A stretch of DNA of 38,938 bases. It comes from a virus. The position numbers and the translations under genes are program-made. Position 1 is the stretch's first letter. Each line of letters opens with the position of its first letter. The notes beneath the pieces were generated by a model. That model saw nothing but the letters and a program-made list of their open reading frames with translations, made no database searches and was not told the DNA's origin. Shown piece after piece: positions 10,663 to 32,534 of the stretch. The stretch spans positions 1 through 38,938 of IMG/VR virus record IMGVR_UViG_3300025759_000236. The stretch is one strand, 5' to 3'.

Positions 10663-10687
10663 CATATAAATACACAGATAAAAAAAT

Positions 10688-11460: not shown

Positions 11461-11534
11461 ACTCCCTTAGCTCAACCGGATAGAGCAACAGCCTTCTAAG
11501 CTGTAGGTTATAGGTTCAAGTCCTATAGGGAGTA
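11461..11534 (+). tRNA. tRNA-Arg (anticodon TCT)
   Basis: Acceptor ACTCCCT / AGGGAGT, D arm GCTC..GAGC, anticodon stem ACAGC / GCTGT with loop CTTCTAA, T arm ATAGG-TTCAAGT-CCTAT, discriminator A, no CCA. It reads AGA, which is frequent in the AT-rich phage genes. Confidence 0.93.
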
Positions 11535-11569
11535 CAAATTTAGATAATTAGTAAACAAAAACAGATACA

Positions 11570-13702: not shown

Positions 13703-14380
13703 ATGCCTAATCACACTGAAACAAAAGTGCGTATACAAGGCGCACCCCATGTTATCGATGCAATGTATGGCAAGCTCAAATCTCTTGTAGGAGACAATGG
13801 GCTAAACAACAACATCGGTTTCCTTGAACAATTTATTGGCGACCCTTCTCGTAATTTAGGTGAAACTGAAAGAAACCTAAAAAGTGAAGATGGTATGCCT
13901 AATTGGTATGCACAGCGATTAAACCATTGGGGTACTAAGTGGGATGTATACCATGTACAAGATGTACAAGTAGATTTTCTGCCCCAGCATGCAGGCTTTG
14001 AAGAGTCACGTGTGCTTACTTGCTTATGGGATACTGCTTGGTCACCGTGTATACCTGCAATGAAAACGCTTAGTCGTAAATTCAATGTAGATGTTACACT
14101 TGACTACATTGATGAAGGTTTATTCTTTGTTGGTCGTACCATCATTATTAATGGTGAGATTAATCTAGAACAAGATTATGACGGCAAAGATGTATACCGT
14201 GGTATGTATGAACTGTTTGGTCGCGAACACTACCTCGATTGGCTCGAAGGAATTAAAGAGTTTGTTGACGACGATTTCAAAGATGAGATACATGGTGATG
14301 CTAAAAACTATGTATCTAAAGAAGACTTCAAGAAAGTAACACACATACTTGGTATGGATAAAGTTACTGAAGAAGGTTAA
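13703..14380 (+). CDS. Api92-like / DUF1281-type protein, 225 aa
   Basis: The protein begins MPNHTETKVRIQGAPHVIDA and contains NWYAQRLNHWGTKWDVY (about residues 66-82) and CLWDTAWSPCIPAMKTLSRK (about 107-126), then VDVTLDYIDEGLFFVGR. This N-H-x-x-N/K-V-R-I start, WGTKW block and TAWSPP-like block are the signature of the ferredoxin-like Api92/DUF1281 family, common on plasmids and phages and without a known activity. The C-terminal 60 residues are acidic and helical. The gene is set off by the structured element upstream and a hairpin downstream, so it may be a separate transcript. Confidence 0.78.
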   Translation: MPNHTETKVRIQGAPHVIDAMYGKLKSLVGDNGLNNNIGFLEQFIGDPSRNLGETERNLKSEDGMPNWYAQRLNHWGTKWDVYHVQDVQVDFLPQHAGFEESRVLTCLWDTAWSPCIPAMKTLSRKFNVDVTLDYIDEGLFFVGRTIIINGEINLEQDYDGKDVYRGMYELFGREHYLDWLEGIKEFVDDDFKDEIHGDAKNYVSKEDFKKVTHILGMDKVTEEG

Positions 14381-14992: not shown

Positions 14993-15085
14993 ATGTTAAA
15001 ATACTTTCGCAAATCAGATTTAATTTATCTTGCAATGACTGCTTATTTTGCTGTTGCAACCATAATTGTATCATGTATCGTATAA
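14993..15085 (+). CDS. Tiny membrane peptide, 30 aa
   Basis: MLKYFRKSDLIYLAMTAYFA is followed by VATIIVSCIV and TAA at 15083-15085. A basic N-terminus and one hydrophobic segment (residues 10-30) make a signal-anchor or pinholin-like peptide. The end overlaps the start of the secreted 99-aa gene by 13 bases, and the amidase lies just downstream, so a holin-type role is attractive by position. It is too short for certainty. Confidence 0.48.
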   Translation: MLKYFRKSDLIYLAMTAYFAVATIIVSCIV

Positions 15086-15372
15086 CGTTATTTATTTTTG
15101 TGTGCCTACTTACGCCTACTGCGTGTACAGGCCCTACTTTTCAATGTGACGTGTACACATGGGGATTTTACGAAGGAGAAACTACCTATCTTACTTGGAA
15201 ACAATGTGATTTTAAAGCATGTGACGAAGTTGCTACATGTGTACTTAACCATATGGAATCGGAAATAATTACGTACGGTAGTTATCCGTACGAATTTGAT
15301 AGCCTTGTATTTAATAAAGACTGCTGGACAAACGAGTGCCCTGATGCACTTTACACTTACGTATATAACTAA
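15073..15372 (+). CDS. Secreted Cys-rich small protein or lipoprotein, 99 aa
   Basis: MYRITLFIFVCLLTPTACTG is a signal peptide with a possible lipobox around Cys18. The mature part has several cysteines (CDVYTW, QCDFKACDEVATC, DCWTNEC) that could form disulphides in the periplasm, and it is acidic and aromatic. It starts inside the end of the tiny membrane peptide and its stop overlaps the amidase start by one base (TAATG). This layout suggests an envelope protein that acts with the lysis genes, possibly a spanin-like or exclusion factor. Confidence 0.65.
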   Translation: MYRITLFIFVCLLTPTACTGPTFQCDVYTWGFYEGETTYLTWKQCDFKACDEVATCVLNHMESEIITYGSYPYEFDSLVFNKDCWTNECPDALYTYVYN

Positions 15373-15839
15373 TGGCAAAACGAGAATTAAGCACTATTGA
15401 TACTATTTTTATACACTGTTCTGCAACGCCAGAAACAAAGAATGTTACAGTAGAAGAAATAGACAAATGGCACAAAGCAAGAGGCTGGTCTGGTATTGGA
15501 TATCATTTTTACATTGATCTGTTTGGCAAAATACATTTAGGACGATCTTTAGATCGTGTTGGAGCACACGTAAAAGGTCATAATGTAAGTAGCATTGGTA
15601 TATGTTACGCAGGCGGTGTTGATGAAAACAATAGCCCCAAAGACACTTTAAACAAGAAACAGTACACTGCTATAAAAAATCTTATTATGGCATTAGGTAC
15701 TGTATTACAGACGCCTTTAAAACTTAAAGGCCATAACGAAACAAGTACTAAAGCATGTCCTTCATTCGACGTACAAGAAAAATTCAGGAAAGAGCAATTA
15801 TTATTGGATTTGCTCTATTTACATCCGGGTGCTATTTAA
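15372..15839 (+). CDS. N-acetylmuramoyl-L-alanine amidase (T7-lysozyme type endolysin)
   Basis: Cuts the amide bond between N-acetylmuramic acid and L-Ala in peptidoglycan at the end of infection. The 155-aa protein is one Amidase_2 domain like T7 lysozyme (151 aa). Zn ligands are His15 (IFIHCSAT), His121 (LKGHNETSTKACP) and Cys129, with Tyr44 (GIGYHFYI) and Lys127 at the positions of the T7 catalytic Tyr and Lys. There is no signal peptide, so a holin or other release is needed. T7 lysozyme also inhibits T7 RNA polymerase; whether this one has a second partner is unknown. The last 85 bases overlap the start of a lipoprotein gene. Confidence 0.93.
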   Translation: MAKRELSTIDTIFIHCSATPETKNVTVEEIDKWHKARGWSGIGYHFYIDLFGKIHLGRSLDRVGAHVKGHNVSSIGICYAGGVDENNSPKDTLNKKQYTAIKNLIMALGTVLQTPLKLKGHNETSTKACPSFDVQEKFRKEQLLLDLLYLHPGAI

Positions 15840-16168
15840 CTAGCAAACCATTATGTCCTGCTTATGTAGACAATTACATAAAGTATGGTACATATGATAT
15901 GAATGATCCAATGACTTGCAGTACCTGGTACGAAGATCCGTACGGGTATATGTGGTCTACAGATAGTAAAAGCATGGCTTTAATGAAATGGACAGAAATT
16001 TCTGGACGTCCAATGGAGTTTGAAGCTGATACTAACTTTAGATACAGCGTTACTGCGTCAGATGGATATACATATTACTTTTGGGGTTGGGCAATGTCAG
16101 AAAATTACTGGCATTACTACATATCTGTTTACAAACCAAAAGAAGATATGTCAATCATTGACTTATGA
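15755..16168 (+). CDS. Lipoprotein starting inside the amidase gene, 137 aa
   Basis: MSFIRRTRKIQERAIIIGFA followed by LFTSGC is a basic n-region, hydrophobic core and good lipobox, with Cys26 as the lipidated residue. The mature part is aromatic and beta-rich (YGYMWSTDSKSMALMKWTEI; TYYFWGWAMSENYWHYYISV). The first 85 bases are read in another frame of the endolysin. Overlapping lipoprotein genes next to an endolysin recall Rz/Rz1 spanins, but this protein is longer and no inner-membrane partner with coiled coil lies beside it. Its stop overlaps the polymerase start by four bases (ATGA). Confidence 0.7.
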   Translation: MSFIRRTRKIQERAIIIGFALFTSGCYLTSKPLCPAYVDNYIKYGTYDMNDPMTCSTWYEDPYGYMWSTDSKSMALMKWTEISGRPMEFEADTNFRYSVTASDGYTYYFWGWAMSENYWHYYISVYKPKEDMSIIDL

Positions 16169-18054
16169 TATATTTTATATCTAATAATCAAACGATTAAG
16201 TCTCCTGAAATAACACAAATATCTGAAAATAAAGCTTATGACTTTATTGGAGATGTTAGATACTTACAGGTAGACTGTGAAACAACAGGGCTCAACCATA
16301 TTGACAATTCTTTATTGTTAATACAAATAGGCACTATTGATGAACAATATGTTTTTGACGTACGCAATGGAGTTCCTGATGTTGTAAAACATATTTTAGA
16401 AGACAAGCGTATCAAGCTATTACACAACGTTTGCTTTGACTACAAGTTTTTAAAACATGCAGACATTGTATTAAATAACGTGTGGGATACTTTAGTTATT
16501 GAGAAACTACTGCACAACGGGCAATCTACGCCTGGTGGTTTTTACAAGCTCAACCAATTAATTGAAAGATACGTAGGCATCAACGTAGATAAAACAGCTC
16601 AAACTAGTTTTATCAATCAAGATCGAGATTTTACAATAAAGCAGATTAAATATGCTGCAGACGATGTAAAATATTTAGAATCAATAAGAGAAAAACAGAT
16701 AGAACATTTAAAACAATCGAACTTGATGCAGTGTGCTAAGCTAGAAAATGCTGCATGTCTAGCATTCGGTGACATTGAATATGAAGGTATGCTAGTAGAT
16801 AAAAATGCTTGGTTAAACCTAGCCAACAAAGCATCTGCAAAAGCTATAGAGGCTAAAAATGAGATGAACAACCTTTTACTAAATGATTTATTATTTAAAG
16901 ATTTTGTTCCAAAGACATATCAAACAGATATGTTTACTACTGACGAAAATGCATTGCTATCAAGTATTGAAATCAACTGGACTAGTCCAAAACAAGTCTT
17001 GCCAATACTACAATCGATCATACCCAATATTGAGAGCTGTGACACCAAGCAGCTTGCTTTGGCTCACAGTAATGACCATAAGTTAATTAAGTATTATATT
17101 GCGTATAGAGAAAATTCAAAACTCGCAAGTGCTTTCGGTCAAGAGTGGTTAGATAAATATGTAGGAAGTGATGGGAAAGTACACACTAGATTTCAACAAA
17201 TATTACGAACGGGCCGAGTATCAAGCTCTAGCCCTAACATGCAACAAATACCAGCTAACAATGAATATAGAAACTGTTTCATCTGTCCAGAAGGATGGTC
17301 GTACATTTCTTCAGACTTCTCGTCTCAAGAACTCTGTATTATTGCGTTTGGCTCGCAGGATCCTGTTTGGCTTGAGTCCCTCGAAAGAGGAGAAGACTTA
17401 CACTCCGTCTGTGCGGATCTCGTCTACGGTGATGTGTGGCGAACAGCTGCAAGATCGGACTGTGAGTACTTTAAAACCAAAGAAAAGTGCTCGTGCCCGG
17501 AACACAAAAAGCTCCGAACGGCAGTCAAAAGCATAAACTTTGGTCTTGCCTACGGCATGGGTCCAAACAAACTTGCCAATCAGTTACAAATATCTATTGA
17601 TGAAGCAACAGAGCTTATCAATAAGTATTTTAAAGTATTTCCTTCTATTAAAAACTATCTTGACACCAATGCAAAAGATGGTAAAAAGAAAGGACATATA
17701 AGAACTATGTCTCCTTATCAACGTATTAGATATTTTCCAGAATGGAAAGGATCTGCTACAGATAAAGTTGATATGGGTAAAATAGATAGAATGTCACGCA
17801 ACACGCCAATTCAAGGCACTGCAGGTGATATGACTAAAGAAGCTATGGTACGATGTCGCCAAGAATTCAAAAACAAAAGTGACATACGATTGGTAATGGT
17901 AGTTCATGATCAGCTTGACTTTATTGTTAAAGATCATACTATTGATTACTACAAAAAAAGAATTACACATCATATGGAAGCTGCTGGTAAATCCATTATA
18001 ACTAACGGATTATTAAAAGCAGATACAACAACAGCTAAAGCTTGGGAAAAATGA
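16165..18054 (+). CDS. polA: DNA polymerase I-like (family A) with 3'-5' exonuclease
   Basis: Replicative family-A polymerase, 629 aa. Exonuclease motifs: ExoI VDCETTGL (Asp37, Glu39), ExoII LLHNVCFDYKFL (Asp92), ExoIII YAADD (Tyr163, Asp167). Polymerase: TGRVSSSSPNMQQIP, motif A SSDFSSQEL (Asp384), motif B / O-helix RTAVKSINFGLAYG (Arg451, Lys455), motif C VVHDQLDF (His581, Asp582). All catalytic residues are present. No 5'-3' exonuclease domain, as usual in phages. Bases 17281-17580, across motifs A and B, are about 48% GC by hand count, against about 25% in the next line. It is coupled to the lipoprotein gene upstream and the small gene downstream (ATGA overlaps). Confidence 0.96.
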   Translation: MIYFISNNQTIKSPEITQISENKAYDFIGDVRYLQVDCETTGLNHIDNSLLLIQIGTIDEQYVFDVRNGVPDVVKHILEDKRIKLLHNVCFDYKFLKHADIVLNNVWDTLVIEKLLHNGQSTPGGFYKLNQLIERYVGINVDKTAQTSFINQDRDFTIKQIKYAADDVKYLESIREKQIEHLKQSNLMQCAKLENAACLAFGDIEYEGMLVDKNAWLNLANKASAKAIEAKNEMNNLLLNDLLFKDFVPKTYQTDMFTTDENALLSSIEINWTSPKQVLPILQSIIPNIESCDTKQLALAHSNDHKLIKYYIAYRENSKLASAFGQEWLDKYVGSDGKVHTRFQQILRTGRVSSSSPNMQQIPANNEYRNCFICPEGWSYISSDFSSQELCIIAFGSQDPVWLESLERGEDLHSVCADLVYGDVWRTAARSDCEYFKTKEKCSCPEHKKLRTAVKSINFGLAYGMGPNKLANQLQISIDEATELINKYFKVFPSIKNYLDTNAKDGKKKGHIRTMSPYQRIRYFPEWKGSATDKVDMGKIDRMSRNTPIQGTAGDMTKEAMVRCRQEFKNKSDIRLVMVVHDQLDFIVKDHTIDYYKKRITHHMEAAGKSIITNGLLKADTTTAKAWEK

Positions 18055-18290
18055 GTCTTTCGATTAACAATGATAAATATCTGCAACCAGAAGAACCCGA
18101 TACCCAAACCTATGAAATAGGTTATTCGATTCATGTAACATTTGAATATGTTACAACTATTGAAGCTACGTCGGAAGATCATGCAAGAGATTTGTTTAAA
18201 GAACAACAAAAACATATTACAGAAAAAGCAGTAATTCATGGAGATAGAACCGATTGTGAGCTAGACATAGACTATGTTATAGAAAGATAA
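18051..18290 (+). CDS. Small hypothetical protein coupled to polymerase, 79 aa
   Basis: The ATG at 18051 overlaps the polymerase TGA (ATGA); starting further upstream would mean using the polymerase's own codons. MSLSINNDKYLQPEEPDTQT is followed by a beta strand (IHVTFEYVTTIEATSEDHAR) and helix, and it ends ELDIDYVIER. The pattern fits a small alpha/beta fold, but no family is recognised. Coupling suggests a replication accessory factor. Confidence 0.68.
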   Translation: MSLSINNDKYLQPEEPDTQTYEIGYSIHVTFEYVTTIEATSEDHARDLFKEQQKHITEKAVIHGDRTDCELDIDYVIER

Positions 18291-18320
18291 TTCTGACCTA
18301 CATATGGATTAATTTGATAA

Positions 18321-18360
18321 TAGGGTGGTATGCATTACATTAATGGTGCATACTACCCTA
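18321..18360 (+). terminator. 14-bp stem hairpin between replication genes and giant-protein operon
   Basis: TAGGGTGGTATGCA (18321-18334) pairs with TGCATACTACCCTA (18347-18360) over all 14 positions with one G-U, around a 12-base loop. It ends 11 bases before the ATG of the first giant gene, so it forms its 5' leader and may both end the replication transcript and control translation of the giant gene. Confidence 0.6.
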
Positions 18361-18371
18361 TATCTATAATA

Positions 18372-21300
18372 ATGAAGTATATATCTTTATTGTGTGTTGC
18401 ACTTTTAATTAGTGCTTCTAGTAACCCAATCTCCGCACAAATACAACCTACTGGTTGTCCTACATATTCTTATTGGAATGGACAACCTGTAAATGATGGT
18501 TCTCAAATAACAGCAGTAACAGGAGTTGGACCTTATTCTTGTTGTACTGCATACGCACCGGAAGGCACTTATTTATATTTTGATGGATCAGAATATATAA
18601 ATAATGAATTGCCAGATGACCCTAACTGTTTGTTGGGAACAGCTGCAGGTCAAGATTCTTCTTGGAATGATTCTTATGGTCTAAAAGGTAGAGGTACTAT
18701 TGTAAATCCAACAAATATATTTTTAGATATGAAAGTCTTTGAAACAAGATTTTCAACTACACTAGGATTTTTACAAGATTTTGAAGAACCTGAATTTGTA
18801 TTTGGTGGTGGTAAATTTAGGTTTCATAGTTTTTACATAGATAATGGAACAACTGTTAGGGTCACTAACAATACTCAGATTGAAATAAAAGGACAACTTA
18901 AAATAAATTCAGGTCAGCTTATTATTGAACCTGGTAGTAGTGTAAAACTATTAGCTAATTCTAATGAAACAGCTGCAACACATTTATACAATGGAGGCTC
19001 GATAGAAGGAGAAATAACAAAACAAATATTTTACAAGAGAAAGTCTACTACAGATGTAAATACAACAACAGGCGAGGAGATTTATTCAAGATTTAATTTT
19101 AATCCAGGCTTGTATAATGTAGATATGGACCAAGTAGCTCGGTCTTTTCAAAATGCTTTAGATATTGAGTATGTAGACGGATCTACTGATAAGCCTACTG
19201 TACAAATAGGAGCCTGGGTTAACGACACTATATATGAAGATTATTCATTCTTTGCAGACCAAAAATATTTAAGTCCTTCAAGTTCTTTAGAACTACCTGA
19301 TTTTGAATATCCTGTATCGTTAGGATCTAATACTTACAATACGTTTGAAGACACTGCATACAACAATTCAGGTATAAATTGGTACAGATTTACTCCAAAT
19401 GAGGGAGCAGCTGTATTACCGTTGTACACTAATACGGATAATACTCAAGATGACTTTTTCAATGATCCTCAATTTTTAGGATACAGCAGCAGTGGGTTAG
19501 TATCTGATTTTTCAAATATATCAAAAACAAATCCAAGCTTTATGGGGCCATGGATTGTGTCTGTATACAATGCAAATCCAAATATTACTGAGTTTGTAAT
19601 AGAAGTAGTTGGTAATCAAGTTACCTCTGCACAAAGCGTTTTTAATATAAAGAATATCGCTAGTAGCACTATACCTACAACTTTAAGTGTATCTGATGCT
19701 CCTTTAACTTTTACATATCAAGTATCTACTGGAGAATATCCTCCTTTTTTACCACTGGCACCTCTAGACTACACTTTACTAGTTACACCAGCAGATACAT
19801 CAGATCAAGGAGTTATTACACCTGCAGATACTATACCATTTGGAGGTCTCTATACTCAAGATTACGGTGTAAAAAATTATTCAGCTGGTTGGTATAGATA
19901 TGTACCAATGACGGGTTTAAATTTTTACCCAAACACTACAGGTAATTATATGTTAACTGAAAGGTTGGGATTAGCATATCATTATGCTGCTCCCTACTCA
20001 GAGCATGCTTTTTACGATACTAGGTTGTTGGTACCCGAAATGAAAGAAAGAGAATATAGCTTTCACACCTTCTCTTCAAATGGATCAACAATCAATGCAA
20101 CAATTGCAGATCATTCTTCATCTGCAAGACTTCCAATAATTGCTAATTTTTTAGCAATTGAAGATCCAGTTACAGATGTAGCTCCAGCTACAGATGTACT
20201 TGTAGATATATATAACATTCCAGATATACCAGTATATACCGGTATAGGTGATACAATACATCCATATGATTCATGGGCTTTAAATCTTAACAACCCTATG
20301 AATTATTTTCAGTATTTAGGACAAGACATTTTTATGTCGACTGGATTTACTCAAGTAGATAAAACATGGTTAGATGGAGGACCTGCTAGTAATCAATGGA
20401 CAGCTCCAATAGTAAATGATTATGCAGGAAGCAATCCTATTAACACTTACGATTTAAGTGAAGTACAAAAAATAGACGATAAAATAAGTCAATTGTCTTT
20501 TAAAAATGGACGAGAGCCTAATTACGATATAGAATACAACGTGATTAAAGATGCTGCGTATTGGGAAGAACAAAACAAATTCTCGTTGCTAACGTTACAC
20601 GGAGTAACATCTGCAAATGATACTATAAGACTTAGTGCAATTCCTGTAGCATGGGGCGAACAGTATGGAATGAATTATTATGTAGGAGATAGCGCAAATA
20701 TAAATAGTGACTTGTTTTTATACGGTGTTGATAGATTTGAAACAAGTATAGGTGTTGATCCAGGATTTCACTTTATAAATAAAAGTCCTAAAGCTGTAAA
20801 TAGAATGGCAGGTGCTCATTCTAGAGATTATGCTATAGCTCTTGACACTTTATATTTAATCTTCAACAGTGAAATGTATGAAGCACCAGTTGGCGAGGAA
20901 TTTGTTTCTTTTTATATAGACAATCCAATAACGCAAGATCCATTTTTTGATGGACAATTTGCTTGGCACTATACTTTTCAAAATCCCGCATGGCCTAATT
21001 TTGTTTTAAATAATAGCGTACAAACATTAAATACTATAAACTATACAGAAGCTGTACCTACTTCTGGAAATCCAGAACAATTTAAAGGAGATATAGTCAC
21101 ATTTACTAGTAATCCTATAGCTGGAGATTTTAACGGAGATGGTCAAGTTACTACAAGTGATTTATTAGTTTTATTAGGCTATTTTGGTGGCGAGGATCAA
21201 GGTAATTTAGGAATTTTTGGCGGAGATTTTAATGGAGATGGCTCAATAACTACTTCTGACTTACTTTCATTTTTAAGCTTTTTTGGACAAACACTAGAAG

Positions 21301-21755
21301 ATTGGGTAGGATTAAGTGGAGAATCTCCTGTATCTATTAACGAAAGAAGAATTAAACATCTTTTAGCAGATAGAAACAATGACCATTATCCTTACGATGT
21401 TTCGTTATATCCAGGTTGGGATTCTCAGCAATTAGCTTGGTATTCCGGCTTAAATAAAGCCAACGTTACTGTGTTCGTAACAGACAACTATGGTTGGGTT
21501 GTATATAAAAATAATTTAGGTGAAATACCTACAGGAATTAGGTTGCAAAATAAATTTCCAAGCACACAAGAAATTTTAGACAGTGGAATTGGAACAGGAC
21601 TTACTGCATATCCAGAAGGATATAACATAAGATTGTTATTCCCTCGACAAACTGTACCTGGATTTACTGATCCTATTGATGTAATTTGTTTAGGATGCAA
21701 AGATCCTGATACTCCTATAAACCTTCAAGTAAATCCAGTATTTACTGTTAATTGA
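18372..21755 (+). CDS. Giant secreted dockerin-domain protein 1 (1127 aa)
   Basis: Start at the ATG at 18372, giving a classic signal peptide MKYISLLCVALLISASSNPI with predicted cleavage after SA before Gln23; upstream codons lie in a hairpin. Residues about 130-210 are beta-helix-like (FRFHSFYIDNGTTVRVTNNT, then LKINSGQLIIEPGSSVKLLA). A YNVDMDQVARSFQNALDIEY segment matches one in the two following proteins. Two dockerin-type EF-hands lie at about 919-935 (DFNGDGQVTTSDLL) and 952-968 (DFNGDGSITTSDLL), each followed by an L-x-x-FG helix. About 150 further residues end DTPINLQVNPVFTVN. It is exported by Sec; the function is unknown. Host secreted proteins of Flavobacteria use similar modules, so capture from a host is likely. 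Confidence 0.88.
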   Translation: MKYISLLCVALLISASSNPISAQIQPTGCPTYSYWNGQPVNDGSQITAVTGVGPYSCCTAYAPEGTYLYFDGSEYINNELPDDPNCLLGTAAGQDSSWNDSYGLKGRGTIVNPTNIFLDMKVFETRFSTTLGFLQDFEEPEFVFGGGKFRFHSFYIDNGTTVRVTNNTQIEIKGQLKINSGQLIIEPGSSVKLLANSNETAATHLYNGGSIEGEITKQIFYKRKSTTDVNTTTGEEIYSRFNFNPGLYNVDMDQVARSFQNALDIEYVDGSTDKPTVQIGAWVNDTIYEDYSFFADQKYLSPSSSLELPDFEYPVSLGSNTYNTFEDTAYNNSGINWYRFTPNEGAAVLPLYTNTDNTQDDFFNDPQFLGYSSSGLVSDFSNISKTNPSFMGPWIVSVYNANPNITEFVIEVVGNQVTSAQSVFNIKNIASSTIPTTLSVSDAPLTFTYQVSTGEYPPFLPLAPLDYTLLVTPADTSDQGVITPADTIPFGGLYTQDYGVKNYSAGWYRYVPMTGLNFYPNTTGNYMLTERLGLAYHYAAPYSEHAFYDTRLLVPEMKEREYSFHTFSSNGSTINATIADHSSSARLPIIANFLAIEDPVTDVAPATDVLVDIYNIPDIPVYTGIGDTIHPYDSWALNLNNPMNYFQYLGQDIFMSTGFTQVDKTWLDGGPASNQWTAPIVNDYAGSNPINTYDLSEVQKIDDKISQLSFKNGREPNYDIEYNVIKDAAYWEEQNKFSLLTLHGVTSANDTIRLSAIPVAWGEQYGMNYYVGDSANINSDLFLYGVDRFETSIGVDPGFHFINKSPKAVNRMAGAHSRDYAIALDTLYLIFNSEMYEAPVGEEFVSFYIDNPITQDPFFDGQFAWHYTFQNPAWPNFVLNNSVQTLNTINYTEAVPTSGNPEQFKGDIVTFTSNPIAGDFNGDGQVTTSDLLVLLGYFGGEDQGNLGIFGGDFNGDGSITTSDLLSFLSFFGQTLEDWVGLSGESPVSINERRIKHLLADRNNDHYPYDVSLYPGWDSQQLAWYSGLNKANVTVFVTDNYGWVVYKNNLGEIPTGIRLQNKFPSTQEILDSGIGTGLTAYPEGYNIRLLFPRQTVPGFTDPIDVICLGCKDPDTPINLQVNPVFTVN

Positions 21756-21756
21756 T

Positions 21757-24700
21757 ATGAAGTATTTATTATTTATACTAGGAATAATAATTCCTGCTGT
21801 TAGTTTTTCTCAATATCCATTTGATGTTTACCTAAGTAGTGTTCAATCAAATTATACAAGTGTACTTAATTTAAATACTATTCAAGACCAAATATATGTC
21901 AGTGGTAACAATGGATTATTAAATTTAACAGGAGAAGATGAAGTAGACTATTACCCGCATTATACTAGTGAAATAGCGCCATATATAAATAATTGGACAT
22001 CGTTTTCAGATGCTCCTTACGCTTGGTATGCTAATACAGTTCAGCAACCTAATCTATATTTAGCATTAGGAGGAGCTGAAGCAGGATCTTCTTTAATTGA
22101 TATACAAGCTATTAACGGGTCAAATCAACTTGGAGGATTATATTGTGGCCTAGTACAAAGCAATGGTCTTAAACGCCGCTATGTAGATATTTACAATGAA
22201 GACACTCTATTTATAAAAAATCTTTTAGTTCCAAAAGAAGGAATTCTAAGACATCACGGTCCTGCACCCGTAGTTATTACAGAACAATTTATAAATTACG
22301 GAACAGTTTATTCTGACGCAGATAACATTTTATGTCAAGCTAATAAAGAAGAAGCAAAAATATCTACATTCGACAACCGAGGAACGTTTATAGGAAGAAT
22401 GAAATATGAAACGCTTGTAAATTATAGGCGTGAACAAATTGGCATAGTTGATTTATTTGATTGGTACCAACCTCTTAATCTACAAGACAGTGTTCAAATA
22501 GCTATACCTTATTTGAATACAGAAAGTGCAGACTATTTACAAAACTTAATGGACAATAATCAATTGTCTGAAATAGCACAGTTTATAGATTCTTTGTATC
22601 AAATTAATTACACATATCCTTGGAACTACTACATTGGACAAAGCTATACTGGATTTCCTTTAAAAGGAACTAGATTCTCAAGAGAAGCAGGTGACTTTAG
22701 AGTAAAACATATGTGGAAAGATTGGAGAGAAATAAAAAAACCATTTATTTTTACCGAAGATACTTATGAAGGTCTTACAATCGATGAAGTAGTAGGCAAT
22801 GGTGAGTTAGCTGTTTGGATAACTGCTACTGGTTATAGTAATACTAACCAACAAGATACTTTAATATATATTGGAGATGAGTTAACAGCTATTTTTGAAA
22901 CTTATGAATGGGTAGATGACTCATTAACATTCATTAATGATACAGTACCTGTTACTGATTTAGAATTTCTTATTAATATCACTGCTTACGAAAATCCTGT
23001 ATTAGAAGGGCTCAACTATTCTTGGATAACTTTTGATGAAGATGAGTTGTCTGTAAGCTATGGTGATAAAGGGACGGCTTCTAGTTTAGTTTGGTCAGAC
23101 TGGAGAGTAGAAACTCCTACTAAAAACAGATTGTACGAAAAAGAAGGCCACTATTTTCTTGCAGATAGTGGATACGGGAGTACTGAAATTTTTGAAAATT
23201 TTGGAGTATCTGGAATACCTATTGTACCTACAGTAGGAGAAGATCCAAACTCACTTTATTTATTACAGGCAGGTTTTCCTGAAAGTTATCCTTACCATGG
23301 TTATGATGCACCATATCTGTCATCGTTTAGTGATGACGACTACCCATATTATAATGGGACATTTGTTCCAGGTTGGGACGCTAGTACTCCAGTTCCTTTT
23401 CCTTTAGGTGTTTTTATGACTCTTTTAGGAAGCCAAAATACTGAAACAGTACTTCAATACAGGGGAACACCTTGGATGAATTCAGATGAAGCGTATATAG
23501 AATACCCTTATCATCCTTCATTACCTGGTCAAAATGATTTAATACCAAATTTAAAACCACCTAGCTGGCTTGGACAAGACAATAATTTTGAAGCTAAAAT
23601 ACATTTGCCTCCAAAAACAAACGTACAGTATGTTTATTCTCCTAGCGGAAGTCTTTTTGAATCTAGTAGTTGGGCTAATTGTTACGACGCTAGTGCAGAT
23701 AATTTTAACTACGATAGTTTACAGATTATAGCATTTTGTGAAACAGAGTTATCAGCATATAGCACTCTTAGTCCTGATAATTTTTATATAAACGCTGAGA
23801 ATAACACCGTTATTGATGAAGAGTATTTAGATTTTTTATTAGCAAATACTGCAGTGGCTGCACTTAGGGAAAATAATTTTTACCATGTAAGTTCACCTGT
23901 ATTAGGATATTTAGATTTAGATCGAGTTGCAGAAAGATTTTTTGAAGAAAATGAAGATGCTCAATATCTAGACTTTCACTGGTATAATAGTCAAGGATTT
24001 CCTGTAGCAGATCCTTCTCAATATTTATTAGCAATAGATCCATTTATAGGATCAAAGAAGTTTTTTAGAAAAAAGTATTACAAGCTTGGAGATGAAGTTA
24101 TGACAAGCGAGCTTGATTTTTGGCTTAGTCTTTTATACTTAGAATTTCAAGCTAGTAACGGTGCAGGATTTAGTGACTTAGCTTTAAATATTGTTAGTTC
24201 TTTAGAAGACGGGGAAGTAACATTTGCAGATGGTCCAATTATAAATTGGTTATACAATGGACAATTTAACCCAGCACAATATGTTGAGTTAAGTCAGTAT
24301 GTTCCGCCTGGAGTAGGATTTTGGATAGGCAATAATATAGGACAAGAAACTACAATTAGTATAAGACCAGAGGATGGTATTTATGATTACAATTGGAGTG
24401 ACTCAACTAATCAAATATTTGCAGGAACTGTAGGACCTGTAGAAACATTAGGTAGACAAGGTGCAAGCAATCTTCCTGAATTTCCTAATTCCAATATACT
24501 TGAGAATCACAATGTGATTTTAGCTTATGCCTGGCAGAATGATTCTACTTACTTTCCATTTCCTGCAATAATGCACCAGTTTGCTGATAATGCAAAAATT
24601 GGAACACACAACCCAGAAGATCAAGGCGTACAATTTCCAATAGTACCCTACGCATATACAGACTCTAGTAACTTTGTTGCTTCTAGATATTTTAAAGAAG

Positions 24701-27024
24701 ACGTTCCACATAACTCTTCTCCTACACATATGCACATTGTAGCTCCTCCTATTAATGGAGCTTGGGTATTTTCTCCTATAAGCTTTCAAAGTCCTGATAA
24801 TATTGTTTCCAATAGTCAAGCAATCTCTAATTTGAGCAAGCCTTTAAGATTAGGAATACAACTTTATGATGAAACTGGAGAATATAATATTCAATATTTA
24901 GACTACATGGACACTATGTATGTCAGATTTGAAGATTATAATTTTCCTATTGAAGCAAAAACATATTGGACAACTTTACAATGCGATTTTAATGGAGATG
25001 GGCTAGTTAGTATTAATGATTTAACAGATGTTTTAGGAGCTTTTGGTGTATGCGAACCTGCTACAAACTTCAATGCTACGTTTGATGCAAATGAAGACGG
25101 GTGCGTTGGTGTTGCAGATTTAATACTAGCAATGACAGAGCTAGGACATAATATAGGCGTAGAAGTAGGAGAGTTTGAAGGTATATCAGGTTTAGTTTCT
25201 GTAGGTGGCAGATTAACTGGAACTTTACGTACAGAGTTTGAATCATTTATTGAAAATGAATTACCTTCTTATTTGGATGCTGGATTTAAATACGATCCAG
25301 CTACTTTGACTCTTAAGTATTTTGGAGAAGAAATTATAGTATATGACTCTGAGTTAAAAGTAATTGCTTCAGGATATAACCAAGTACAACTTCCTAATGT
25401 AGATGAATTTTATCTTGTTGCTGCAGAGTCTGCAGTATGTAAGATAAACACTAATGCAACTTTAGTAGTACCTGCTTCTGATCCTGGAAACTATACTTAC
25501 AATGCAGTTGTATATACTCCTGAAGAAGGTTCAAGCATTGTTAACTTTTGGGACAATTCTTTAAAACTTGCAAGTGTTGCAGAATGGACAGAACTATACA
25601 CTGATTTTGACCAGTATAGCGGGAACTTAAATCCACTACCTAATATCAGTCCATATATAAACCAGCTTTATTACGGTTGGAACTCCAATAAACAAACAGG
25701 AGACTTGTACTCTCCAAGCAATGCTATTACTGCTGGATTAGTTGATGTATTTAGTGCAGGACAACCTGAAAGCGATATATTCAATTTTAATAAAGGAGTA
25801 TACGCAGACCCTAAGTGGAAATCAGCAAGTGAAGGCTATGAAGATGAAATAGGTATTGGATCTACCAACATATTTACTCCTAAAAATATTTTATTTGGAT
25901 TTGCATCTAAAAGAAATAAAGAGAATTTACACTCTGATCAGATACACAACTCTTCAGAAACTTTAAAAATATCTAACATAAACGGGGCATCTACAGCATT
26001 TGGCCCCTATTCTGTAGTAACAACAGAGTTAGACCCATCTGCGTCTGTCTGGGGATCCGAAGACATTAAAGAATACTATGACGCTCCATTTGAAAATGCA
26101 GTGCTCTCAATGGTAGATATGATGACCTTGAGAGATTATTTCAGATTTAAATTAAAAGGAAACTCACCCAAGTTTGGTGCAAAGAATCCAAGAGATACTG
26201 GAAATTGGCCAGCACAAAGTTTTGGAAATCCTTATAACATCAATACTGTAATTGGAGAGCAGCAGCAAATACCAGAAAAACAGTGGGCACCCAATACATG
26301 CAACACATATCAAGATTGGACTGACAACATTGTTACTCCTTTCTTTGCAGCTTTTATGGGTCAACCTGTTTCAATTACTATTGAAGGGGCTCCTCCCATA
26401 TTTACAGGAGAAGAATTAAATAATGATGCTAACCATTATCAATGGTTTCAAAACTCTACTTTGTTTGAAGCGCTTGGAACATACGGACCTCTTGTCTATG
26501 ACTTTGATTGGAATGGAGTATGGGAACAAAAAGATTTAGATATCTGGAATTCTATTACAAGCGTATGGAGTCAATTAGGTGACGATGCAGGAAGAAGTTA
26601 CTACGCCCCTGCAAACTACTATAGAGCAGGTACTGACGCGCTTAACACTATTGTTAATGTTTTACCTGAATACTCAAACAAAAAAGACTCTTACATTCCA
26701 GCAAAAAACTTTACTCAATATTTTAATATTAGCAATGGAGAAGCTACTATTGATACAAGAATTGCTAACTGGGCTAACTGCCTAAACGGTAATGAATATA
26801 TAGAAGGAAATCAAAGTGTAGGACCAGAAGTTCAAGCAAGTCAATTCACATATACAACCGACTTGCCGTTATTAGAACCGGCTACACTATCATTAGCCAT
26901 GAGTTCCTCAGCTCCTAGAAATACAGCAAACGCTATTGAAATAACTGATTACCATAGCATACCTGGAGGATATCTAGTAGTTCCTTCCAGTACTTTCTTT
27001 CCTGTTTCTCTTATTAGAAATTAA
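21757..27024 (+). CDS. Giant secreted dockerin-domain protein 2 (1755 aa)
   Basis: It begins one base after the previous stop. The signal peptide MKYLLFILGIIIPAVSFSQY is cut probably before Gln19. An N-terminal beta-helix-like region (DTLFIKNLLVPKEGIL, PAPVVITEQFINYGTV, about 145-220) matches the third protein. Later come LGYLDLDRVAERFFEENEDA (about 715) and VPPGVGFWIG (about 850). Dockerin EF-hands start at about 1077 (DFNGDGLVSINDL) and 1110 (DANEDGCVGVADL). A third EF-hand-like loop, DFDWNGVWEQKDLDIW, starts at 1582. The C-terminal 500 residues (INQLYYGWNS, MVDMMTLRDYFRFKLKG, QWAPNTC) are closely shared with protein 3. Low-GC, host-like composition. Probably surface-attached or released; function unknown. 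Confidence 0.9.
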   Translation: MKYLLFILGIIIPAVSFSQYPFDVYLSSVQSNYTSVLNLNTIQDQIYVSGNNGLLNLTGEDEVDYYPHYTSEIAPYINNWTSFSDAPYAWYANTVQQPNLYLALGGAEAGSSLIDIQAINGSNQLGGLYCGLVQSNGLKRRYVDIYNEDTLFIKNLLVPKEGILRHHGPAPVVITEQFINYGTVYSDADNILCQANKEEAKISTFDNRGTFIGRMKYETLVNYRREQIGIVDLFDWYQPLNLQDSVQIAIPYLNTESADYLQNLMDNNQLSEIAQFIDSLYQINYTYPWNYYIGQSYTGFPLKGTRFSREAGDFRVKHMWKDWREIKKPFIFTEDTYEGLTIDEVVGNGELAVWITATGYSNTNQQDTLIYIGDELTAIFETYEWVDDSLTFINDTVPVTDLEFLINITAYENPVLEGLNYSWITFDEDELSVSYGDKGTASSLVWSDWRVETPTKNRLYEKEGHYFLADSGYGSTEIFENFGVSGIPIVPTVGEDPNSLYLLQAGFPESYPYHGYDAPYLSSFSDDDYPYYNGTFVPGWDASTPVPFPLGVFMTLLGSQNTETVLQYRGTPWMNSDEAYIEYPYHPSLPGQNDLIPNLKPPSWLGQDNNFEAKIHLPPKTNVQYVYSPSGSLFESSSWANCYDASADNFNYDSLQIIAFCETELSAYSTLSPDNFYINAENNTVIDEEYLDFLLANTAVAALRENNFYHVSSPVLGYLDLDRVAERFFEENEDAQYLDFHWYNSQGFPVADPSQYLLAIDPFIGSKKFFRKKYYKLGDEVMTSELDFWLSLLYLEFQASNGAGFSDLALNIVSSLEDGEVTFADGPIINWLYNGQFNPAQYVELSQYVPPGVGFWIGNNIGQETTISIRPEDGIYDYNWSDSTNQIFAGTVGPVETLGRQGASNLPEFPNSNILENHNVILAYAWQNDSTYFPFPAIMHQFADNAKIGTHNPEDQGVQFPIVPYAYTDSSNFVASRYFKEDVPHNSSPTHMHIVAPPINGAWVFSPISFQSPDNIVSNSQAISNLSKPLRLGIQLYDETGEYNIQYLDYMDTMYVRFEDYNFPIEAKTYWTTLQCDFNGDGLVSINDLTDVLGAFGVCEPATNFNATFDANEDGCVGVADLILAMTELGHNIGVEVGEFEGISGLVSVGGRLTGTLRTEFESFIENELPSYLDAGFKYDPATLTLKYFGEEIIVYDSELKVIASGYNQVQLPNVDEFYLVAAESAVCKINTNATLVVPASDPGNYTYNAVVYTPEEGSSIVNFWDNSLKLASVAEWTELYTDFDQYSGNLNPLPNISPYINQLYYGWNSNKQTGDLYSPSNAITAGLVDVFSAGQPESDIFNFNKGVYADPKWKSASEGYEDEIGIGSTNIFTPKNILFGFASKRNKENLHSDQIHNSSETLKISNINGASTAFGPYSVVTTELDPSASVWGSEDIKEYYDAPFENAVLSMVDMMTLRDYFRFKLKGNSPKFGAKNPRDTGNWPAQSFGNPYNINTVIGEQQQIPEKQWAPNTCNTYQDWTDNIVTPFFAAFMGQPVSITIEGAPPIFTGEELNNDANHYQWFQNSTLFEALGTYGPLVYDFDWNGVWEQKDLDIWNSITSVWSQLGDDAGRSYYAPANYYRAGTDALNTIVNVLPEYSNKKDSYIPAKNFTQYFNISNGEATIDTRIANWANCLNGNEYIEGNQSVGPEVQASQFTYTTDLPLLEPATLSLAMSSSAPRNTANAIEITDYHSIPGGYLVVPSSTFFPVSLIRN

Positions 27025-27029
27025 TACCT

Positions 27030-30000
27030 ATGGTTAAAAAAATATTACTCTTTTTAGTTTCGTGGTTATCATATATAACAATATACGGTCAGAGTCCTGT
27101 TGCGTGTTTTGATGAAGATGACAACTTACAAAGAGAACCTAGTCTTTGTCTTTTAGTTTCAGGTTCTCAAATTGATCTTTTTATTAATAATAATTTTTCT
27201 GTACATACTCCTGATGCTTTAATTCAAAACTCTCCTATAGCAGATTTAGAAACTGGAGAAAAGATTTATACCAATGAATATAATTATGATGGAACTGCAG
27301 CTCCTATAAATTTTTATCCAAACCAAAGAGCTTTAAAACTAGCTGCAGGCGGGTTAAATCCAGGAGACGTTGTTATGACAACTTCTTTAGGATCTGCTCC
27401 TCTAGGAGAACCTTTTTATTTAAAAGAGTTAAGAGTTGGTGTTTACAGAAATGATTTTTACCATCGTCATTTAGAGTTAAACAACTACGATACAGTTTAT
27501 ATAGAAAAGCTTACTATACCTTTTAATGCAGAATTCGTTCACAATGGACCAGCTCCTTTAATAATAACTAAGGAATTACACAACTATGGAAAGTTTACTA
27601 CGGTAAATGATAACTTAGTTATGGAATTTAATATAAACGAAGGAAAAAGAAGCGTTTTAGAGAACAAAGGAACTTTTGTAGGCAGATTAGAATATGAAAA
27701 TGTTAGAGGCGCCGCTTACGTTCCTGTTGTTTACGGAGCATTATTTAATACCGCAACTGCTCCTACATTAAATGATTCCATTGCTATATTTTTAGAATGG
27801 GCACCTCCTGAGTATATTGATGCATATGAAGAATTTCAACAAAGTGGCTTATACGACAGCATACCTGATTTAATAGCTAACTTTACTAATGAAGTATATA
27901 CTCTTAATTTTAATAACGGTTTTGCAAAAAAAGGAGTACCGTTAAAAGGAGTTAGACTTGGTCCTTTCGAAGGAGATTACTCAGTAAAAAAATTGAGAAG
28001 GCTTCCAGGCAACGACAATGCATGGGGTAAAGAATACTTTGCAACAGGAGAAGATGTTAATATTTTATTTTCAGCAATTGAAAATGGTGATGCAGCTATA
28101 GTTTTAACTTCTAATAATATAGACGCTCCAACAGGAGATGACACTTTAGTTGTTACATCTGACGGTCTTATCGCTAATGTAACTGAGTATCTATTAGTAA
28201 TAGATGGTAATACTGTAGTATTCTATGACTCTGTTTTTTATGATAACGCATCATTAATAGTAAACTGGAATTATTATTACTCGGATTTCCCGTCAGTAGA
28301 TGAATACGCAAACAATAATAATATTGCTGTAGGAGATTGGGTAAACACATTAGACTTGTTTCCTAATACATATGGAAGGCAAGTATTAGGTCAGTATTTT
28401 GGCTCTTTTAAACAAAATGTAGTTTTATTCGATTTAAAAAGTAGTTTAGATGAAGGAAGAAAAGGTTGGGAACATCCTGATCACTTTATTTATGCAGACA
28501 CTTCTGGTATAGAATCTTTTTTTGAAAATATTTATAATGTTAGTTTAGATTCATTAGACTATGATCGGTCAGTAACAGAAGAAGATTTAATACTTTATGA
28601 AAATGAATTAAACGCAGGTTTAATTGAAAATAACATATTTTACGATGCGTTATTAGAATCTAATACAATATTACCCTATCCAGATATTAGCAAGTATAAT
28701 GGAAGTTATAATTATTTAAACGCATGGGGATATAAATGGCCTGATGTAGATTATGATACTCCATTTCCATATCCTGGAAGCTACTGGACTAATGCTATGT
28801 GGTATGACTATAAAAGCCCTAAAATAGAATCATATAAAGGATTTTTATGGAATAATTCTGACGAGTCTTATCAAGAAAATCTTTACCACCCTCCTAATTT
28901 ATTAAATAGTCAGCCATTAATACCTAATATACAACCTGATGAATATTGGGATAATGCTTATCATTTTCCTTTGTCCATTGGGGAATCCAGCACTTACGTG
29001 TATGATTTAGATGGAAATCTATTTACAGAAGATTCTTATACTAATTGTATTAACATAAATGAAGATTTAAGTTACGGAGATGACGAAGTTTTTGCATGTT
29101 TAAACGATCCAAGCACCAATTCTAATGGCTCCGTTGCAACTCCTGTTATTTTTGATTATAATGTAGGAATAGAAAGTCTAGACTTTTCATCTGAATACAT
29201 TGATTCTGTATATGCAGACGTTGTTTTTAATCTTTTTATTAAAGATCAACAATTCAATAAAGTAAGTGATGTTTTAAACACAACTTTAGGTTATTTAGAT
29301 TTAAATGAAGTAGCTTTTAAATTTTTTGAAGAAAATCCAAACACTTCATTTTTTCAAGTTTCAACTTGGTCTGCAGCTTGGCGGGGAAGATCTGTTTTAG
29401 ATCCAAACATTGTTAATCCTTATGCTGGTAAGAACGACAATCCTCATATAATAAGAAAATATTACAATTGGAATTATGGTTCAAATTCAACTAATAATTC
29501 GTCTTATGTAATAACTGAAGAACAAACTTATTGGCTTACTATATTATATACTATATATACAGCAACTAATGGCGCTGGAATGAGTGACCAAGCTATTGAA
29601 CTAGCAGTAGCATTTCAAGACGGAATTATCGCTCCTAGCGACGGAGCACCTTTTTGGTATATGGTAACAGGAGACTTTGGATGGAATACACGAATGTCAC
29701 TAGGAAGATATGTTCCTCCAGGAGAATCTTTTTATGTATATACAGATAAATCTAATACTGGATACGTTACGATTGATAGCGATATGTCTAGTTACACCTA
29801 TGATTTAAGTGAATTAGATTCAAACGAGATTTTTTCAAATGAAGTAGGACCTTGGGAGTACACTACATATGGATATGACTATCAAGGATCTCCTCAAAGA
29901 ACATCTGAAGAATTAACAGATGAGTTAGAAACTAATAATACATCTGATTTTAGTTTGTTGTTAGATGTAGCAAGTAACTTAATTTCATGGGCTTATAAAA

Positions 30001-32534
30001 ATGATACAATCTACTATCCTTTTTTAACTTTAAACCATAGTTTTGAAGATGGTCAGCAATTTGGCGCAAACAATGTTGAAGAGCCTGCTGTCACTACAAC
30101 AGCTCTTCCTTTTGTATTTTCAGATCCTTTACAGTTTTACCCAACTAATAAAATGTTAGAAGATGGTCCTCATAACCAGGACCCTTCTATAATTTATTTT
30201 CCAAGGCCTAACATTGGCGGAAAATGGGGTTTAGAGCAAATTACCAAACAGACGTTAAATTCTAGGTATTTTGATCCAGAGGTTACTACATATAATGATC
30301 CGTTCTTTAATAACGCAGAAGTTCCAGTAACTTATACAAATCCTAACAGTGTTAGAATGGCTATTCAAATGTTTGATAGCACTGGAGTAGAGCCTATAAT
30401 TTATTTAAATCCTGGCCAACAATTTATATTAGAAGATGATGAAAGTAGTGCATGGCCAAAACATGCTTACTTATATCATACATCATTAAAAGGAGATGTT
30501 GACGGAAATGGAGTAGTAGGATCATCAGATTTATCATCAGTTCTTTCTGCGTTAGGAGATTGCGCTGAAGATTATGAAAACGGAGAATTGCCCGTAAACC
30601 TAGATTTAAACGATGACGGATGTATTACAACTCAAGATTTGCTTACTGTAATATCTTTTTATGGAAGAAACATTGGACAATCTAATGGTCAATTCATAGG
30701 AGATCCAATTTCTATAATATGGGATGCAGAAGAAGAACAAGAAGTTGACGATATATTTGAAGAAGAAGAGCCGTATGTTGATGACTTTGTTCAAGATCCA
30801 GGAAGAACATCATTAAAATTATTTGGAAATGATATAATTATTATTGACAATAATTTAAATATTGTTGCTCAAGGAAAGAACAGCGTTAACATTCCTGCAT
30901 TAGATCCTGCAAAAAATTATTTAGTAATATCAGATATTACAGTTGGTAAGTTAAATCAGTCTTTATTAACAGGAGTACCAGCTGCATATGATCCAGGTAC
31001 TATTAATTATAATTCTAATAACTATACTGCTGCTACTGGATCTGGAACTATAGAAGTTTATCAAAGCATGAGCGGAGCAACAGTTCAAGATTGGATAAAT
31101 CTTTATACAAATTATGATTACAGCGTTGCCAACAACAATAGTATAGAAAATGTCAGTCCACGTATCAATCAATTGTATTACGGATTTAATTCATTAAATA
31201 CTACTGGAGATCTTTATTCACCAGTTAATGCTAAAGTTCAAGGATTGATTGACATGTTTGGTGCAGGTACTCCTGAAGAGAGTATAAATGATTTTTCAGG
31301 AGGTGTATACAATGATCCCAGCTGGTCTGCAGCCACAGCATATGAAAATGTTAGTGGCTATGTAAACAAAAGCATATTCCCACCTAAAAATATACCTTTA
31401 GCTTATGTGTCTAAACAAGTTGATACTTATTTGCACAAACAACCTGTAACAATAAATGCTCATTTAGAATTAGCATCCCCTGTACCAGGAGGTGTAGCTC
31501 AAACTTTTGGAAAGTATTCTGAGTTGAGCTCTACTGTTGACCCTAGTGTAACAGTGTGGGGAGAAGACTTTAAAGAATTTCATGATGCTCCTTTACACCA
31601 AGGTGTTGCTGCTATGGTTGACATGATGAGTGTAAGAGAATACTTTAAACTCAAGCTTCATGGAGTGTCACCTAAATTCGGAGTAAACAATGTTCCGGAT
31701 ACAAGAACAAGGTTTACAGAAACTCATGGAACAAGTGTAAATTATAGTGCAGTAAATGTGTTGGAAACGCAACAAGCACCCGCAAAAGGATGGGCTCCAA
31801 ATATTTGTACAAATTATGCAGAATGGACAACAAACATTGTAGCTCCATTTATTGCAGCTAATATGAATCAGCCTGTCACTGTTTTAAACGATGCATCTCC
31901 CCCAACTCAAACCGGTATACAGTTAAATACAGATGCAGATCATTACCAATGGTTTGAGAATTCTGTTATGAATATTGCACTTAATACCTATGGTCCTTTA
32001 GTGTATGATTTTGATTGGAACGGAGTTTGGAATCAAACAGACTTAGATATATGGAACGGAATAACCTCATATTGGTCTGGATTAGGAGATGATCAACTCG
32101 TTGGAAAATATGTACCTGCCTGTTATTACAGAGCAGGAACAGATGCTTTAAATAGCATTGTAAACACTTTGCCTTATGTTGAAAGTAGAAAAACTAAATA
32201 TGAAACCAGTAAAAGATTTAAGTCTTATTTTGACAAGGATACTGCTCCTTATATAAATCATGACATCGCTAATTGGAGTGAATGTTTAGATGGTTATTCT
32301 TATGTTGTAGGAAATCAAGTTCAAGGATCTTTTGCAAGTTCTGGTAGATTTGCTGGAATAAAAGATTTACCTATATTTGACAACAACGGAGAGATATTAT
32401 CTACTCTGTTAACTCAAGCCGCTCCTACAAATTTAGTTGGAGCTCGAGAAATTACAGATTTTGGATCTATACCTGCAGGTTATTTGGTGCATCCATCTGA
32501 CAATTACTTCCCAGTATCTAATACATGGCAATAA
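27030..32534 (+). CDS. Giant secreted dockerin-domain protein 3 (1834 aa)
   Basis: Third gene of the operon, five bases after the second. The signal peptide MVKKILLFLVSWLSYITIYG is cut probably before Gln21. It is a paralogue of protein 2 over most of its length: DTVYIEKLTIPFNAEF and GPAPLIITKELHNYGKF near 155-190, LGYLDLNEVAFKFFEENPNT near 755, VPPGESFYVY near 895, dockerin EF-hands at 1156 (DVDGNGVVGSSDL) and 1192 (DLNDDGCITTQDL), the EF-like loop DFDWNGVWNQTDLDIW at 1660, and the shared C-terminus ending EITDFGSIPAGYLVHPSDNY plus a few residues. The acidic linker after the dockerin (EEEQEVDDIFEEEEPY) is unique to it. No obvious type IX sorting domain is seen at the C-terminus. A promoter-like motif for the helicase gene follows. 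Confidence 0.9.
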   Translation: MVKKILLFLVSWLSYITIYGQSPVACFDEDDNLQREPSLCLLVSGSQIDLFINNNFSVHTPDALIQNSPIADLETGEKIYTNEYNYDGTAAPINFYPNQRALKLAAGGLNPGDVVMTTSLGSAPLGEPFYLKELRVGVYRNDFYHRHLELNNYDTVYIEKLTIPFNAEFVHNGPAPLIITKELHNYGKFTTVNDNLVMEFNINEGKRSVLENKGTFVGRLEYENVRGAAYVPVVYGALFNTATAPTLNDSIAIFLEWAPPEYIDAYEEFQQSGLYDSIPDLIANFTNEVYTLNFNNGFAKKGVPLKGVRLGPFEGDYSVKKLRRLPGNDNAWGKEYFATGEDVNILFSAIENGDAAIVLTSNNIDAPTGDDTLVVTSDGLIANVTEYLLVIDGNTVVFYDSVFYDNASLIVNWNYYYSDFPSVDEYANNNNIAVGDWVNTLDLFPNTYGRQVLGQYFGSFKQNVVLFDLKSSLDEGRKGWEHPDHFIYADTSGIESFFENIYNVSLDSLDYDRSVTEEDLILYENELNAGLIENNIFYDALLESNTILPYPDISKYNGSYNYLNAWGYKWPDVDYDTPFPYPGSYWTNAMWYDYKSPKIESYKGFLWNNSDESYQENLYHPPNLLNSQPLIPNIQPDEYWDNAYHFPLSIGESSTYVYDLDGNLFTEDSYTNCININEDLSYGDDEVFACLNDPSTNSNGSVATPVIFDYNVGIESLDFSSEYIDSVYADVVFNLFIKDQQFNKVSDVLNTTLGYLDLNEVAFKFFEENPNTSFFQVSTWSAAWRGRSVLDPNIVNPYAGKNDNPHIIRKYYNWNYGSNSTNNSSYVITEEQTYWLTILYTIYTATNGAGMSDQAIELAVAFQDGIIAPSDGAPFWYMVTGDFGWNTRMSLGRYVPPGESFYVYTDKSNTGYVTIDSDMSSYTYDLSELDSNEIFSNEVGPWEYTTYGYDYQGSPQRTSEELTDELETNNTSDFSLLLDVASNLISWAYKNDTIYYPFLTLNHSFEDGQQFGANNVEEPAVTTTALPFVFSDPLQFYPTNKMLEDGPHNQDPSIIYFPRPNIGGKWGLEQITKQTLNSRYFDPEVTTYNDPFFNNAEVPVTYTNPNSVRMAIQMFDSTGVEPIIYLNPGQQFILEDDESSAWPKHAYLYHTSLKGDVDGNGVVGSSDLSSVLSALGDCAEDYENGELPVNLDLNDDGCITTQDLLTVISFYGRNIGQSNGQFIGDPISIIWDAEEEQEVDDIFEEEEPYVDDFVQDPGRTSLKLFGNDIIIIDNNLNIVAQGKNSVNIPALDPAKNYLVISDITVGKLNQSLLTGVPAAYDPGTINYNSNNYTAATGSGTIEVYQSMSGATVQDWINLYTNYDYSVANNNSIENVSPRINQLYYGFNSLNTTGDLYSPVNAKVQGLIDMFGAGTPEESINDFSGGVYNDPSWSAATAYENVSGYVNKSIFPPKNIPLAYVSKQVDTYLHKQPVTINAHLELASPVPGGVAQTFGKYSELSSTVDPSVTVWGEDFKEFHDAPLHQGVAAMVDMMSVREYFKLKLHGVSPKFGVNNVPDTRTRFTETHGTSVNYSAVNVLETQQAPAKGWAPNICTNYAEWTTNIVAPFIAANMNQPVTVLNDASPPTQTGIQLNTDADHYQWFENSVMNIALNTYGPLVYDFDWNGVWNQTDLDIWNGITSYWSGLGDDQLVGKYVPACYYRAGTDALNSIVNTLPYVESRKTKYETSKRFKSYFDKDTAPYINHDIANWSECLDGYSYVVGNQVQGSFASSGRFAGIKDLPIFDNNGEILSTLLTQAAPTNLVGAREITDFGSIPAGYLVHPSDNYFPVSNTWQ

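Follow-up and report, generated by a model that had tools for sequence, protein, structure and literature searches.

Giant dockerin proteins with predicted Sec signal peptides, encoded between the polymerase and helicase genes in a small clade of crAss-like phages

RESULTS

Three giant genes lie in the replication block

The window, the whole stretch of DNA analyzed here (positions 1 to 38,938 of IMG/VR record IMGVR_UViG_3300025759_000236; 38,938 bases), is given as a linear record and is a genome fragment. Judged by its genes, the phage belongs to Crassvirales: it has the terminase, portal, major head protein, replication gene set, and opposed gene blocks, and its closest terminase matches are from Flavobacterium psychrophilum phages (38%) and gut crAss-like phages. 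Three adjacent open genes (P1, P2, and P3) are separated by gaps of 1 and 5 bases, as the first-pass annotation of this DNA had described, and PHROG matches on both flanks confirm their placement between the DNA polymerase and SF2 helicase genes, within the replication block. Open frames of such lengths are far beyond chance.

15073-16168, plus strand: lysis cassette with an Amidase_2 endolysin gene between two lipoprotein-like genes; overlaps the polymerase start
16165-18054, plus strand: DNA polymerase, left flank (PHROG E 1e-100; 76% and 68% identity to two relatives)
18042-18290, plus strand: small gene (82 aa) between polymerase and P1
18372-21755, plus strand: P1, putatively exported dockerin protein, 1127 aa
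21757-27024, plus strand: P2, putatively exported dockerin protein, 1755 aa, paralogue of P3
27030-32534, plus strand: P3, putatively exported dockerin protein, 1834 aa
32584-33828, plus strand: SF2 helicase, right flank (PHROG E 5e-47; 82% and 72% identity to two relatives)

To the right of P3, PHROG matches identify the SF2 helicase, a DnaB-like helicase, Sak4, and primase; the portal and terminase are encoded on the strand opposite the giants. We place the P1 start at 18372, as before, and not at 18330, the start in the mechanical ORF list, because 18330 falls within a conserved hairpin and the signal peptide that begins at the 18372 ATG is kept in relatives; the longer start is probably not used. 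P2 and P3 (36% identity overall, 50% across the C-terminal 466 residues) are paralogues, and a pair of giants in the relative G001 is 45% identical; the two pairs look like separate duplications or homogenized copies.

An amidase-lipoprotein cassette (Amidase_2 E 2e-13; PHROG category lysis) sits just upstream of the polymerase on the same strand. The replication-strand block is thus not purely early, and the earlier argument from strand that the giants are made before virion genes is not established.

Elsewhere in the window, positions 6300-9400 have a GC content of 0.44 to 0.50, versus ∼0.35 in the remainder, and few convincing ORFs; this stretch belongs to the phage, since two small ORFs in it (6942-7406 and 8251-8493) have homologues in G001 (55 to 61%). 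Three tRNA genes, Leu(taa), Met(cat), and Arg(tct), lie at 10577-11535 (plus strand), and a 225-aa protein with an Api92-like/DUF1281_C ferredoxin-like domain is encoded at 13703-14380 (plus strand).

The giants occupy the same locus in close relatives

Scanning IMG/VR with the window helicase yielded 80 loci. In the three closest (helicase identity of 82, 72, and 67%), giant homologues lie directly before the helicase. The first-pass annotation had proposed a search of crAss-like genomes for homologues at this position, and they are present in two and partly in a third: G001 (75.6 kb) has three giants (1057, 1164, and 1130 aa), G002 (85.5 kb) has two (1136 and 1847 aa), and G003, a small fragment, retains one giant C terminus beside the helicase. 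G002 carries a 123-bp terminal direct repeat and is apparently a complete genome, circular or circularly permuted; its P1 homologue spans the contig ends.

A chimeric contig, in which assembly would have joined a bacterial operon to phage DNA at the giant junctions, had been raised as a concern. The giants do have a lower GC3 than core genes of the window (0.17 to 0.20 versus 0.25 to 0.34), but G001 and the terminally repeated G002 share the junctions and G003 has the helicase side, and this synteny in independent contigs makes the chance of an artifact negligible.

Giants were absent from the 50 other loci in which both polymerase and helicase are visible; there, the interval spans 282 to 2508 nt and holds small genes only, lacking comparable signal peptides. 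In giant-less loci, a small gene similar in look (judged by eye) to the 82-aa gene precedes the helicase. A P2/P3 profile found no match in 17 sister records, while a similar profile does match G001 to G003. One of the sister records is Fpv20 (NC_031912), a Crassvirales phage of Flavobacterium psychrophilum, which resembles the window in its terminase (38%), its major head protein, and its polymerase-helicase-Sak4-primase order. After the Fpv20 polymerase come helicase, DnaB, and primase, ordered as in the window; it differs in that the helicase directly adjoins the polymerase, and its whole genome has neither a P2/P3-profile match nor a dockerin. No GenBank phage was matched by tblastn with P1 and P3, and searches for further clade members through the giants, the hairpin motif, and the polymerase returned the same contigs only. 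Scans of bacterial genome contigs, which are shallow for distant kin, revealed no bacterial relatives. In these surveys, giants at this locus are restricted to a small crAss-like clade.

All giants carry predicted Q-rule signal peptides

18372-18437, plus strand: P1 signal peptide, Q-rule, MKYISLLCVALLISASSNPISA followed by Q
21757-21810, plus strand: P2 signal peptide, Q-rule, MKYLLFILGIIIPAVSFS followed by Q
27030-27089, plus strand: P3 signal peptide, Q-rule, MVKKILLFLVSWLSYITIYG followed by Q

The earlier report of a Sec signal peptide on each giant of the window held up (3/3) and extends to all eight giants across three genomes, as predicted by a simple rule rather than by SignalP. In every one of the eight, a charged n-region and a hydrophobic core are followed by small residues and, at the predicted +1 position, a glutamine. 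Glutamine at +1 defines the Q-rule, a Bacteroidetes-specific feature of Sec/SPI substrates (PMC5837995), and the giants keep this signal despite 22 to 33% identity between genomes. The eight Q-rule signals point to Sec export from a Bacteroidota host; the nearest terminases likewise suggest that the host is a member of the Bacteroidota.

Within the three giant-bearing genomes, no other ORF of at least 250 aa has a Q-rule signal peptide, and in 153 loci around these genes (1.78 Mb) none of at least 300 aa does besides the giants. Otherwise, convincing export signals fall on small ORFs of these genomes, including the lipoprotein-like genes beside the amidase, and there are a few weak signal-peptide calls on short ORFs. 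No fiber-like protein of the structural block has a signal peptide.

Pfam (PF18962) and NCBIfam (TIGR04183) models found no type IX secretion system (T9SS) C-terminal sorting domain in the giants; the same models do match a G015 protein. The giants are therefore not filed as T9SS cargo. The post-dockerin stretch EIIVYDSELKVIASGYNQVQLPNVDEFYLV looked like such a domain by eye and received no score with either set of models. A soluble giant lacking a recognized T9SS tail may stay periplasmic until lysis.

Dockerin pairs and C-terminal modules

18693-19028, plus strand: P1 beta-strand-rich N-terminal region, residues 108 to 219, compatible with a beta-solenoid (low confidence)
21120-21266, plus strand: P1 dockerin pair, EF loops DFNGDGQVTTSD and DFNGDGSITTSD
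24985-25122, plus strand: P2 dockerin pair, below the Pfam cutoff, both EF loops intact
25624-27021, plus strand: P2 C-terminal module, common with P3 (50%), third EF loop DFDWNGVWEQKD at 26500-26535
30489-30653, plus strand: P3 dockerin pair
31083-32531, plus strand: P3 C-terminal module, third EF loop DFDWNGVWNQTD at 32007-32042

Paired dockerin EF-hands, previously noted in all three window giants, were found again, and both EF loops are present in 8/8 giants. Dockerin_1 (PF00404) scores above the Pfam cutoff in P1, P3, the three G001 proteins (whole-record search), and G002 P2, and below it in window P2 and in the C-terminal piece of G002 P1. P2 and P3 each have a third dockerin-like EF loop near the C terminus; it is part of a 500-residue module that is common to P2, P3, and a G002 protein and absent from the G001 homologues.

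The giants share the paired EF-hand module with cellulosomal type I dockerins (PDB 2y3n chain B; profile E 1e-8 to 3e-9). Unlike these, they have no attached cellulosomal enzyme, and the cohesin model PF00963 had no match at E ≤ 10 in four phage records. Domain profile searches recognized no enzyme, carbohydrate-binding, or adhesin family in the giants, and they match no PHROG tail family. The beta-helix-like N terminus that had been proposed for each giant is plausible but weakly supported: a predicted beta ladder spans P1 residues ∼110 to 220 (pLDDT 40 to 64). Whole predictions from four-row alignments reached a pLDDT of 31 (P1) and 28 (P3 C-terminal half); since they failed, no fold supports adhesion.

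A conserved hairpin precedes P1

18320-18361, plus strand: conserved 5'-leader hairpin, arms 18320-18334 and 18347-18361, loop with TTACATTAA

The hairpin ends 10 nt before the P1 start. Each of its 12 stem pairs is preserved in all three genomes, in three cases through changes on both sides; slid controls are 31 to 63% paired. The covariation evidence, drawn from three sequences, is small but clean. Its predicted MFE is −28.4 (z −5.9; −6.5 to −5.9 across genomes), and each genome of this clade has a single copy of the motif, with no other occurrence in IMG/VR. The hairpin has no T-run and so is not a typical terminator; we infer that it is a posttranscriptional control element of the operon. 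A strict flavobacterial promoter consensus was not found before P1; upstream of the hairpin lies a conserved A/T-rich ATTTG stretch.

The giants diverge like the fiber cassette

Between G001 and G002, the giants are 25 to 28% identical and the fiber-cassette proteins 26 to 46%, often over partial lengths, compared with ∼60 to 94% for most core replication, packaging, and head proteins (a few are lower, e.g., 42%). Across the clade genomes, the giants are 22 to 33% identical. They are acidic and low in Lys plus Arg, resembling the fiber cassette and unlike cytosolic proteins. Such fast divergence is expected of proteins that face an antagonist outside the cytoplasm, and it fits any host-facing role. 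G002, the complete relative, has its own tail-fiber-like and virion proteins elsewhere, the tail-fiber-like one in the structural block.

DISCUSSION

We propose, with a probability of about 0.6, that the giants are exported, non-virion proteins of the infected cell that act at surfaces; export, non-virion status, adhesion, and competition are all steps that we infer. The giants would leave the cytoplasm through the host Sec pathway, with signal peptidase I exposing an N-terminal glutamine in keeping with the host Q-rule, and their dockerin-type EF-hands would fold on meeting extracytoplasmic Ca2+. The mature proteins, presumably large, acidic, multidomain, and adhesin-like, would then bind envelope or extracellular partners in the periplasm, at the surface, or outside the cell after lysis. 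The benefit could be competition, in that surface partners become occupied or altered and hence unusable by other phages; in an alternative form, the phage's own progeny would not be lost on debris. Phage competition is, tentatively, the single most likely benefit, with adhesion or glycan binding next. A more elaborate scheme, in which the operon builds a Ca2+-dependent, hairpin-gated dockerin assembly on the envelope and turns the infected cell into a decoy or fortress against rival phages, seems doubtful.

A possible, if less favored, alternative is that the giants are host-derived accessory adhesins or glycan binders without a direct anti-phage role, through which infected cells attach to particles or to one another or gain help in using polysaccharide. 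Their signal peptide, acidic low-lysine composition, and dockerin do resemble secreted Bacteroidota proteins, a neighboring lineage has a secreted M43 protease with dockerin loops, and glycoside hydrolases are among the Cryophage cargo (PMC7468147). Against this alternative, the giants have no recognizable enzyme, carbohydrate-binding, or adhesin family, and genome-contig scans, shallow for distant kin, found no bacterial relative.

The non-virion character that the first-pass annotation favored agrees with the signal peptides, the replication-block locus, and the lack of a PHROG tail match, which together suggest it. Could the giants nonetheless be exported through Sec and then attach to particles, at lysis or later, as additional long fibers? 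Divergence and composition match those of the fiber cassette, and the structural block of G014 has an ORF with a partial dockerin match, but signal peptides are missing from these phages' fiber cassette, and the giants match no PHROG tail family and lie far from the structural block. We know of no tailed phage that assembles via Sec-exported fibers and regard such decorations as unlikely. The G014 ORF (L125:3070-4494) encodes a signal-less 475-aa protein with half a dockerin, GDINGDGEVTSADLLLLLGGFG; dockerins are therefore not exclusive to exported proteins, and such motifs occur in probable virion proteins, too.

Long receptor-binding fibers, one of the roles first suggested for the giants, are disfavored by the signal peptides, the locus, and the tail-fiber-like protein in the structural block of the complete relative. 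A tail fiber or receptor-binding protein would be expected to lie in the structural block, to have no signal peptide, and to belong to a known tail family; the giants show none of these. That they are ordinary cytoplasmic tail fibers whose hydrophobic N terminus is not a working signal peptide is very improbable: being large, beta-rich, and fast evolving is typical of fibers, but all eight N termini are signal-like with Gln at +1, even at 22 to 33% identity between genomes.

The earlier statement that no phage system of this type has been described was too strong, since phage-encoded type IX cargo has been reported (PMC7468147 and PMC6949934). Cryophage encode variable T9SS cargo proteins (Nat Commun 2020, PMC7468147), and the likeness extends to a Bacteroidetes phage, host-like exported proteins, and high variability among close relatives. 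Of the Cryophage hallmarks, the giants share the Sec signal peptide (8/8) and the strong variation and lack the T9SS tail; Cryophage cargo has T9SS type A sorting domains and enzyme or PA14 domains, whereas the giants stand apart as giant dockerin proteins without such a tail, encoded in one replication-block operon behind a leader hairpin. The crAss-BACON cluster 2 phages, which encode T9SS sorting-domain proteins (Viruses 2019, PMC6949934), are likewise Crass-related phages with secretion-tagged, host-like proteins; theirs are BACON repeats near head genes, and the published description includes no dockerin giants in the polymerase-helicase interval. No description of phage dockerin giants was found in the open-access papers searched, an absence that is weak evidence.

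The giants' ∼14 kb would amount to perhaps 15% of such a genome, devoted to host-style exported proteins, a hint that infection makes the bacterium release or display proteins of the virus's choosing. If their site of action is extracellular, this would be a lytic phage that uses the Sec export of its host to remodel what surrounds the host, and the outward display of an infected cell would become a trait that can be tested. Considered alongside the T9SS cargo of related crAss-like contigs, the giants suggest that virus-chosen protein export recurs in the crAss-like group.

Several export-tagged proteins are encoded by sister phages, at other places in their genomes. G014 encodes, at 18973-20157 (minus strand), a 395-aa Q-rule M43 metalloprotease (Pfam E 1.6e-17) with C-terminal dockerin-like EF loops. 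In G015, a 712-aa protein (L130:7960-10095, plus strand) has a T9SS type A sorting domain above both cutoffs and is adjoined by a 346-aa Q-rule protein (L130:10095-11132, plus strand) with no family assigned. G015 also encodes a 422-aa protein with a type B tail (L131:13590-14855, plus strand; CHU_C, 60.7 bits), which is found again in G016 (15752-17017), a contig from another metagenome.
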